This document shows, piece by piece, positions 46,626-49,692 of a stretch of DNA of 52,513 bases (its first letter is position 1; the number at the start of each line of letters is the position of its first letter). Origin of the DNA: Candidatus Saccharimonadota bacterium (GTDB lineage: Bacteria > Patescibacteriota > Saccharimonadia > Saccharimonadales > Saccharimonadaceae); the NCBI GenBank assembly GCA_030530605.1, contig JAUMUO010000001.1, positions 6,916 to 59,428 on the forward strand, in the 5' to 3' direction. The notes beneath the pieces were generated by a model. That model had not been told where the DNA came from. It saw only the letters and a list, made by a program, of their open reading frames with translations, and did not search any database. Made by a program: the position numbers and the translations under genes.

Positions 46626-46631
46626 TATAAT
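46626..46631 (+). promoter_or_regulatory. Leaderless promoter of the MurE-like ligase
   Basis: TGATATAAT ends six bases before the ATG at 46638. Confidence 0.75.
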
Positions 46632-46637
46632 ATACCT

Positions 46638-47921
46638 ATGAGTGTTAAAGATGTTATCCCTGGCTACAATGCTGTTGTTTTACCATACCATTTAGTTCAA
46701 ACCGAGCTTTCTGGCCTCAAAAACCGCTGGCCCGCCAAAAAGTTAAGAGTCATCGGTGTTACCGGCACCAACGGCAAGACCACTACCTGCTTTATGATTT
46801 GGAAAATGTTAAACGAAGCTGGTCTAAAAACCGGTCTCGTCACTACCGTTGCTTGGGGAGTGGACGAAATCCATAAACAAATAGAGCATATGACTACTCC
46901 AAAAGTCTCTACCTTGAACAAACGCATCAGAGAAATCCAGAAATCTGGCGCCGAGTTCCTCGTCCTCGAGGTTACTTCTCACGCCCTTGCTCAATACCGC
47001 ACCCTCGGCATCCCGATTGAAATCGCCGTTATGACCAATGTCACCCACGAGCATCTTGATTATCACAAAACTTTTGAACGCTATGTTAAGGCCAAAACCA
47101 AACTCTTCAAGCACGCAAAGTTTGGTGTCATTAACCTCGACGACCCTTCCTGGAAAGAATTCAAAAATGCCATCTCCCCCGATGGAGATAGTAGAAAATA
47201 CAACACCTACAGTATTGAAAGCCATGCCGACCTTGAAGCCGTCAAAATCAGCCTCAGCCCAGAGGGTGTCCGCTACAAAGCCCGTTCCGAAGGGAACTCT
47301 ACTCTTGAAATCCGCACTAGAATCCCTGGTAAATTTAATGTTTACAACTCTCTCGCCGCCGTTGCGGTCGGCAGAAAACTTGGTCTTTCAAGTGAGCAAA
47401 TCGAAAAGGGAATTTACGCCCTAGAAGAAGTCGAGGGCCGGATGAATCGCATCGACGAAGGCCAAGATTTTGACGTTATTGTTGATTTTGCCCATACTCC
47501 CGACGCTTTCCAAAAAGTTTACGACAGTGTCTATCCGCACAAAGGCCGCATCATCTCCCTCTTTGGTGGCGCCGGTCGTAGAGACGAATCCACCCGCGCC
47601 GAACGCGGCGAAATCGCCGGCAAATACAGCGACCTCTGTATCATCACCGAAGACGACTCCCGCGACGAAGACCCCGCAAAAATCGCCAAGATGTTTGAAG
47701 ATGGCTGTAAAAAAGCCGGCCTTAAAGACGACCAAATTATCATTGAACTAGATCGCGAAACTGCCATCAAAAGGGCATTGGAAGAAGCGAGAAAGGGCGA
47801 CCTCGTCCTCATCCTCGGCAAAGGTCACGAAAAAACCATCCTAAGGGCCGACGGCCCCCACGCCTTCGAAGACCTCGAAGTCACCAAAAGAATCCTACAA
47901 AACCTCATAAAGCCTCAATAG
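46638..47921 (+). CDS. MurE-like Mur ligase
   Basis: Adds an amino acid (or amide) to a UDP-MurNAc peptide or lipid-linked precursor. 427 residues. P-loop VTGTNGKTTT (41-50), EVTSHALAQ (MurE has EVSSHAL), HEHLDYH (about 138-144), the lysine-bearing YVKAKTKLF, RIPGKFNVYNSLAA and the C-terminal FGGAGRRDESTRAERGEIAG with ITEDDSRDEDP where MurE has DNPR. The first MurE domain, which holds the UDP sugar, is almost absent (about 30 residues before the ATP domain), so it is not a complete classical MurE. Predicted leaderless. Convergent with the degenerate paralog. Confidence 0.88.
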   Translation: MSVKDVIPGYNAVVLPYHLVQTELSGLKNRWPAKKLRVIGVTGTNGKTTTCFMIWKMLNEAGLKTGLVTTVAWGVDEIHKQIEHMTTPKVSTLNKRIREIQKSGAEFLVLEVTSHALAQYRTLGIPIEIAVMTNVTHEHLDYHKTFERYVKAKTKLFKHAKFGVINLDDPSWKEFKNAISPDGDSRKYNTYSIESHADLEAVKISLSPEGVRYKARSEGNSTLEIRTRIPGKFNVYNSLAAVAVGRKLGLSSEQIEKGIYALEEVEGRMNRIDEGQDFDVIVDFAHTPDAFQKVYDSVYPHKGRIISLFGGAGRRDESTRAERGEIAGKYSDLCIITEDDSRDEDPAKIAKMFEDGCKKAGLKDDQIIIELDRETAIKRALEEARKGDLVLILGKGHEKTILRADGPHAFEDLEVTKRILQNLIKPQ

Positions 47922-47928
47922 AGATACT

Positions 47929-48720
47929 TTATTTTGTATAGTTGGCAATGCCTTCAGAAATCTTCTCAGGCGTTACATGTAAAGCATCGGCAATCGCCGT
48001 CGCTGCTGCCATATAAGATACAATCGGCTCACCCGTGAGGAACGAAGCCACTGTAAAATGTGTGGTCCCAATCGCAAGCCGCGCCTCTACCCCCTTCTTA
48101 TAAAGCTGTGCTTCTTCGATCTGAATGTTTGAGAATTTATCACAACCATAAGTCAGCGTGCCCTTTTGCCCAGCAAAAGTCGAAAGCTCCGGGTAATTTT
48201 TATCGTCACGGTTCAAAACCACATAATCCGGTTCCATATCAAACAAGGTTTTGGAAGCCTCTACATATTCCTCTACCGGCTTCTCCGCGATTGAAGCGTC
48301 CATATAATTCGTAATTGCCGCCACGTGGACTGGCAAACCATAGAAAACATCCGAAGATAACGCCTCGGCCGGCGCCGTCACCACCACATAGTTCGCACCC
48401 GCCTTCCAGGCTTTAGACAAGAATTTATGAAGAGCAGAGACTTTGATGTTAGATTCCGAGGCCATAATCGCCACCGGCTGGCCAGCCGCCCGTAGAATCT
48501 CATGGACAAAATGCGCCACCTCAACTTTACCAGCCGTACCAGTAATCGCAATCAACTTCATATCCTTCAAAGGATGACCATACAAAGTATCCAAAAACTT
48601 TGCGCGCATCCTAGTCGCACGGTTCTTCTTCGCACCTTTTTTAGTATTGTCTTCTGGAGTTTCAACAGGGGTATCGTCCCTTTCCTCCGCCTCGTTTAAT
48701 GTAGTCTCACTCGTTGTCAT
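47929..48720 (-). CDS. Degenerate Mur-ligase paralog, probable pseudoenzyme
   Basis: 263 residues. After an acidic then basic N-terminus (1-48) comes a Mur-ligase middle domain co-linear with the neighbouring MurE-like protein: ITGTAGKVEVAHF in place of VTGTNGKTTT, VVVTAPAEALSSDVFYGLPV-HVAAIT in place of the EVTSHAL segment, NYMDASIA in place of HEHLDYH, YVEASKTLF in place of YVKAKTKLF. The P-loop lysine is kept, but the following threonines, the metal histidine and the carbamylated-lysine motif are lost. The ligase domain is missing. It is intact, has its own leaderless promoter (TATAGT 48727-48732, minus, six bases from ATG) and is therefore probably functional as a partner or regulator. 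Confidence 0.8.
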   Translation of the reverse strand: MTTSETTLNEAEERDDTPVETPEDNTKKGAKKNRATRMRAKFLDTLYGHPLKDMKLIAITGTAGKVEVAHFVHEILRAAGQPVAIMASESNIKVSALHKFLSKAWKAGANYVVVTAPAEALSSDVFYGLPVHVAAITNYMDASIAEKPVEEYVEASKTLFDMEPDYVVLNRDDKNYPELSTFAGQKGTLTYGCDKFSNIQIEEAQLYKKGVEARLAIGTTHFTVASFLTGEPIVSYMAAATAIADALHVTPEKISEGIANYTK

Positions 48721-48763
48721 AATTTTACTATACCATATTTTTGAAAAATATGATAGAATATAT

Positions 48764-49290: not shown

Positions 49291-49692
49291 CTAAAAATCA
49301 ACCTCAAAAAGCTTTATAATCTCATGCTTTTTAGTAATAATCATAATTCTATGTTTCCCACTAATAAAACCATCCTGACGCTTTATTTCACGTATGCATT
49401 TGTCTTCTGGCAAACTCATACGACTTAAATCTATAATCATATTCCTCGACTGCCGAAGTGCTAGACGCATGTTGTTTTCAATCGTACGACTACTTTTGCC
49501 ATGTGGAGACTTAATTTCCCACTCTAACCCTTCATATCTAATATCTGGCGTAGCGCGGTTATTGGCAGTAGGTATAAACTCTACATCACCACCAGTCCAA
49601 GACAAAATTGTAGCTACATTGAATTCATGTGGCTGTACTAACGCACTTTTTGGCACTGTTATGCGCCCAATTTTATCTTTTTTCTGTTTCAT
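49291..49692 (-). CDS. Stand-alone CdiA-CT-like nuclease
   Basis: 133 residues matching the C-terminal tRNase domain of contact-dependent inhibition toxins: NVATILSWTGGDVEFIPTAN, ATPDIRYEGLEWEIKSPHGK and IENNMRLALRQSRNMIIDLS. D50, E59 and K61 form a D-x8-E-x-K arrangement like PD-(D/E)xK nucleases. Here it is a whole gene with no secretion or delivery region and no recognisable immunity gene. TGATAAAAT (TAAAAT at 49699-49704, minus) ends six bases before ATG, predicting a leaderless message. It lies 3' of the palindromic tRNA-Arg region. It could be a cellular tRNase, a solitary toxin or an exported effector. Confidence 0.8.
   Translation of the reverse strand: MKQKKDKIGRITVPKSALVQPHEFNVATILSWTGGDVEFIPTANNRATPDIRYEGLEWEIKSPHGKSSRTIENNMRLALRQSRNMIIDLSRMSLPEDKCIREIKRQDGFISGKHRIMIITKKHEIIKLFEVDF

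Follow-up and report, generated by a model that had tools for sequence, protein, structure and literature searches.

A predicted pseudoenzyme of MurE descent beside the MurE ligase of some Saccharibacteria, possibly retained as a subunit after its displacement

The window, i.e. the whole stretch of 52,513 nt analysed here, carries two convergent genes for relatives of the Mur ligases, one encoding a MurE-type ligase (MurE-A) and the other a shorter protein (P) with an altered active site. This raises the question of where P comes from, why it is kept and whether it works together with its neighbor. The sequence-only reading of the locus had regarded P as a degenerate paralog of MurE-A and proposed that the two might form one heteromeric enzyme. 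The co-linearity of the two proteins underlying that proposal is real, with 24% identity over 229 aligned residues (E 1e-14). The suggestion that P has its own promoter is weakly supported: a TATAGT hexamer mirrors the TATAAT in front of MurE-A, but a consensus scan of the region gave no more promoter-like sites than chance would (4 vs 3.3 expected) and picked up neither hexamer, leaving the promoter tentative. Both mRNAs look leaderless, as the hexamers end 6 nt before the start codons and no obvious ribosome-binding site is seen.

Table 1. Features of the MurE-A/P locus, in window coordinates
Feature	Coordinates	Strand	Description
MurE-A	46638..47921	+	427 aa, M and C domains, without domain 1; predicted live UDP-MurNAc-tripeptide-synthetase-like ligase
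P-loop GTNGKTTT, intact	46764..46787	+	MurE-A residues 43-50
P	47929..48720	-	263 aa, apparently dead Mur-ligase middle domain of probable B-type MurE descent, without C domain; Lys-rich disordered N-terminus
P-loop GTAGKVEV, altered	48517..48540	-	P residues 61-68
Intergenic gap	47922..47928	none	7 bp between the convergent stop codons of MurE-A and P
TATAAT, possible leaderless promoter	46626..46631	+	6 nt 5' of the MurE-A ATG; direct reading
TATAGT, possible leaderless promoter	48727..48732	-	6 nt 5' of the P ATG; direct reading

MurE-A has the hallmarks of a live ligase. It matches Mur_ligase_M with 167 bits and Mur_ligase_C with 94 bits, clears the MurE model TIGR01085 with 396.7 bits (cut-off 257.3) and keeps the P-loop, the HLDYH, carbamyl-lysine and C-domain motifs. 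The Pfam search found no UDP-binding domain 1 (PF01225) in it, and the TIGR01085 match begins only at profile position 81, implying that domain 1 is missing, as the sequence-only reading had noticed for most of it. The genome of the window encodes six Mur_ligase_M proteins; because the other five are P, MurD (L002), a MurC-like protein (L005), FolC (L004) and a MurF-like protein (L006), MurE-A is the only MurE found there and, judged by its motifs, the sole catalytically complete one.

The lack of domain 1 had been taken to mean a truncated ligase in need of a partner. Across the phylum, 77 of 96 genomes contain a relative of MurE (E < 1e-30), mostly in open frames of 400-490 aa, similar in length to MurE-A, and PF01225 mostly gives one match per Patescibacteria genome, as expected for MurC alone; a few genomes (e.g. 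G288, G328, G293, G355) have PF01225 directly before MurE. MurE enzymes of this phylum thus normally lack domain 1, so its loss is not tied to P, and we file MurE-A as a domain-1-less kind of MurE-type ligase. The notion of a ligase that needs a partner fails on this ground and on the 52 genomes described below that have an A-type MurE and no detectable companion. P as a substitute for domain 1 was likewise rejected, domain 1 being missing with or without P. In the window genome, the MurF-like protein also lacks domain 1, and the MurC-like protein and MurD keep their N-terminal domain, a pattern that raises the question of whether the last two additions occur on a UDP-linked or a lipid-linked precursor.

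The only Pfam match of P is Mur_ligase_M (PF08245, 60.5 bits, cut-off 24, residues 59-244), and the protein ends where the C domain would be expected to start, in agreement with the earlier statement that P has lost the ligase domain. The motif changes described in that reading are equally real: GTNGKTTT has become GTAGKVEV, TNVTHEHLDYH has become TNYMDASIAEK, and the carbamyl-lysine position is lost. Counting conservation over 49 P sequences from two genera, we found that residues conserved in both live MurE types mostly fall into two sets (MurE-A numbering). The structural residues N166, D168, D169, G43, G46 and P32 are kept in >90% of the sequences, whereas the catalytic residues T86, E111, S114, H115, H139, D141, Y142, K153, N234 and N237 are each kept in ≤18%. 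P also has near-invariant residues of its own (D53, H70, W105, F126, Y236 and Y261, at 88-100%). By this sequence comparison, none of the catalytic residue classes examined survives in P, which also lacks the whole C domain, and P can be classed as a putative pseudoenzyme, that is, a homologue of a live enzyme with its catalytic residues lost. Relative to the MurE family defined by TIGR01085, MurE-A passes the cut-off of 257.3 bits with its catalytic motifs and differs in lacking domain 1, whereas P shares the middle-domain fold and the descent but reaches only 57.7 bits and is without C domain or catalytic residues.

P is maintained across its lineage. It is present in 27 of 27 sampled genomes of the window genus (g1), with an intact frame in each, and in 16 of 17 genomes of genus g11; stand-alone, more diverged relatives occur in g2, g12, g9 and g59. 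The named neighbors, Candidatus Saccharibacteria MAGs, come in many cases from ruminant guts, and the relatives sampled are for the most part draft genomes, including many MAGs. In 19 of the 27 g1 genomes, MurE-A and P are convergent at a distance of up to about 500 bp, and in three they are convergent within 2 kb; in the remaining five they lie on separate contigs or ~100 kb apart. They are convergent in g11 too. Co-occurrence of the two genes as neighbors, which had been suggested as a check across Saccharibacteria, therefore holds in certain genera but not in all Saccharibacteria. The convergent orientation in both genera and the five unlinked g1 genomes indicate that co-expression is not built in.

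Rates of change point to constraint. Using NG86, with many pairs saturated and dS high, dN/dS between the window and L058 was 0.062 for P and 0.076 for MurE-A (dS near saturation), and between L061 and L062 it was 0.074 (dS 0.88) and 0.121, respectively. Values of 0.06-0.07, no higher than those of the live MurE-A in the same pairs, indicate purifying selection on P. Within g1, the ratio of P to MurE-A patristic distances is 0.4-1.3, meaning that the two proteins evolve at similar rates; between g1 and g11 the ratio rises to about 1.5-2.5, with P the faster. The description of P as a conserved pseudoenzyme is borne out by its presence in all sampled genomes of the genus, its intact frame, these dN/dS values and the operon-like dead companions of other genera described below. 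The refuting outcome named in that reading, P missing or frameshifted in close relatives, did not come about. In one g11 genome (G120, 98% complete), MraY is present and neither MurE-A nor P was found, which may be co-loss or an assembly gap; because a single missing stretch of assembly would explain both absences, we set this case aside as evidence. The same genome encodes a 316-aa Mur-ligase-like protein (L186:10905-11855, + strand), possibly related to MurF, whose P-loop is altered to GAFGRKS; it may be a further degenerate Mur ligase.

The origin of P is not in its neighbor. The Saccharibacteria family of the window has two MurE types, A (window-like) and B, and type B is the only MurE in 67 sampled relatives. 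A middle-domain tree (98 rows, LG+C20) recovered type A as a clade (100/99), P as a single clade (95/90) and the dead companions encoded in operons of other genera as a separate clade (96/92 without the long branch L147). P, the operonic companions and the B-type MurE of the family group together at 75/98, the bootstrap being weak. A profile of the dead companions scores intact B proteins at 176-272 bits vs 70-126 bits for A. Because both the tree and the profile scores side with B, P appears to be a remnant of the MurE still used by related genera and not a copy of MurE-A, a descent whose deep branch is weak and which is partly profile-based. This largely overturns the earlier view of P as a degenerate paralog of its neighbor, and a duplication of MurE-A was rejected on the same data. 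An AU test of one shared origin for P and the operonic companions gave p 0.50, which speaks neither for nor against it. In the lineage of the window, a second MurE thus seems to have taken the place of the original one. The two types differ at the motif with which known MurE enzymes read the third amino acid (EDDxRDxD in A, EENYxED in B, DDPRGED in Thermotoga maritima), so the swap may have changed the substrate, which we note as a lead only.

Dead relatives of MurE also occur directly next to live ones elsewhere. Dead companions of 352-408 aa are encoded directly upstream of a live MurE, on its strand, in genera g8, g13, g15, g17, g57 and g46 as well as in G270, a single genome from another family; they overlap the live gene by 4-38 bp or are separated from it by 0-2 bp in 13 loci and by about 16 bp in L182. 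The partner is of A type in the family of the window and an ordinary MurE in G270. Between L148 and L150, dN/dS was 0.04 for the operonic companion and 0.033 for MurE-A. The operonic companions mostly keep GKTTT and have lost NxDD, whereas P has mostly lost the P-loop Thr and the entire C domain; having lost different residues, the two may not share one role. Structure prediction gave P a mean pLDDT of 87 and a pTM of 0.81, with the Lys-rich N-terminus disordered, and confirmed the Mur_ligase_M fold (Z 26-27 to MurE structures); an operonic companion was predicted as a two-domain MurE-like fold (pLDDT 86, Z 33.8 to T. maritima MurE). Judged by these models, both proteins seem to fold but to have no functional active site.

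G081 shows the reverse order, with a full-length dead B-type protein (L072_2419, 424 aa) 29 bp downstream of MurE-A. The tree pairs this protein with the intact B from its own genus as sisters (100/99), which marks it as a separate event. Its C domain is 87% identical to that of the intact B (dN 0.09, dS 0.97), and the segment from HLDYH to the lysine is only 37% identical (dN 0.57, dS 0.92), a pattern that indicates selective loss of catalysis with the remainder kept. On these comparisons, companions accordingly lost catalysis in at least two independent events. Another genome, G095, has both A- and B-type MurE (L073, L074) at different loci with intact P-loops; both are apparently intact, possibly an intermediate stage.

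The distribution of companions follows that of the second MurE. A second, dead copy was found in none of the 67 B-only genomes, and in each case where a dead companion was read together with its neighbors, a second, live MurE was there as well. No companion was detectable in 52 of 58 further A-type genomes, e.g. in genera g7 and g36, where MurE-A evidently does without one. A companion thus occurs together with a second live MurE but is not needed by MurE-A.

To account for these observations, we propose that a type A MurE took over the ligation step from the original B-type MurE of the lineage and that the displaced enzyme persisted as a non-catalytic subunit. This subunit would bind MurE-A, or a complex of the MurE/MurF stage, through a presumed contact to which the overlapping frames of other genera lend indirect support, and would stabilize, position or allosterically tune its target; P would be the most reduced form of such a companion, consisting of the middle domain only. 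Taken as a whole, this proposal is in our judgement evenly balanced between right and wrong, and for P itself the most likely role is that of a subunit or scaffold without catalytic activity in the MurE step, with contact presumed. We hold more tentatively, at somewhat less than even confidence, the general form in which the arrival of a new MurE repeatedly displaced the resident enzyme and, in several lineages, the latter turned into a dead subunit of the newcomer, giving a heteromeric MurE. A precedent for the mechanism is the trypanosome AdoMetDC prozyme, which, like the dead paralog of deoxyhypusine synthase, is an experimentally established activating subunit of a live enzyme according to the two reports (PMC5201418, PMC3663545). 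P resembles these proteins in being a dead homologue kept by selection beside a live enzyme. It differs in that it did not arise as a copy of the live enzyme but is a displaced MurE of the other type, in that a bacterial cell-wall ligase is concerned and in that its subunit role is proposed from sequence.

A different fate of the displaced ligase, in which P does not bind MurE-A and has a job of its own, e.g. with MurF, with MurG/MraY or in an unrelated complex, is unlikely but deserves serious attention. The best matches of P among solved structures are effectively tied between MurE (Z 26.6) and PAP11, the MurE-like subunit of the plastid RNA polymerase (9epc_Q, Z 27.3, rmsd 1.9, 224 aligned residues), a Mur-ligase fold reused as a subunit. 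The P-specific invariant residues fit such a job, as do the lack of linkage between P and murE in several g1 genomes and the fact that the two are not co-oriented. PAP11 differs from P in aligning with MurE-A over both the M and C domains and in belonging to a transcription complex. Independence from MurE sits poorly with companions that occur only with a live second MurE, are absent from B-only genomes and are operon-like in several genera.

That P has kept the ability to bind ATP/ADP or a precursor, and serves as a sensor or buffer without being a subunit, is improbable. P retains G61, G64 and the K/R of the P-loop, a few orthologs read GTTGKTTV, and most operonic companions keep GKTTT, all of which would suit ligand binding. 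Against this, the P-loop Thr is retained in only 24% of P sequences, and the Mg/ATP Glu is replaced by Thr or Ser in 46 of 49. The position of N237, which we take to correspond to the MurD Asn that contacts adenine, is Tyr in 47 of 49, suggesting a filled nucleotide site, and P has no C domain to close the site.

The heteromer of two paralogs advanced by the sequence-only reading, in which P arose from MurE-A and both make up one enzyme since MurE lacks domain 1, is now very improbable, its account of the origin being largely refuted. It drew on the adjacency, conservation and truncation of the two proteins; P descends, by the evidence above, from B, itself lacks domain 1, and lives in a phylum where MurE commonly lacks that domain and A-type enzymes commonly lack companions. 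The analogy with MurT-GatD fares no better, GatD being a glutaminase and not a Mur-fold protein. MurT is similar in being a Mur-ligase-fold protein that works with a partner, but P scores 12.5 bits against the MurT family (cut-off 800), on which its identification as MurT was rejected, has no C domain and neighbors a Mur ligase instead of a glutaminase. Finally, a functionless, decaying relic is barely credible and was rejected: the many lost catalytic residues and the longer g1-g11 branches would fit decay, but not the low dN/dS, the intact state of every frame read, the MurE-A-like rate within the genus and the confidently predicted fold.

Mur ligases are an essential, much-studied family of drug targets, and pseudoenzyme partners are well documented in eukaryotes. 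In the open literature, which excludes most subscription journals, we found neither a pseudoenzyme partner of a Mur ligase nor papers on Mur ligases of Patescibacteria; if true, a heteromeric MurE would be the first Mur ligase with such a partner. The genomes offer natural replicates at several stages (B alone, A with intact B, A with full-length dead B, A with a shortened companion, A with the middle domain only, and A alone), so that the route from displaced enzyme to dead companion and the dispensability of the companion are directly testable. The outcome would bear on how peptidoglycan is built in Saccharibacteria, which are tiny, genome-reduced, host-dependent bacteria. Elsewhere in the window, just before groES/groEL-like genes, a stand-alone 133-aa protein (49291-49692, - strand) carries a CdiA_C domain (PF18451, 49 bits), resembling the C-terminal domain of contact-dependent inhibition proteins.
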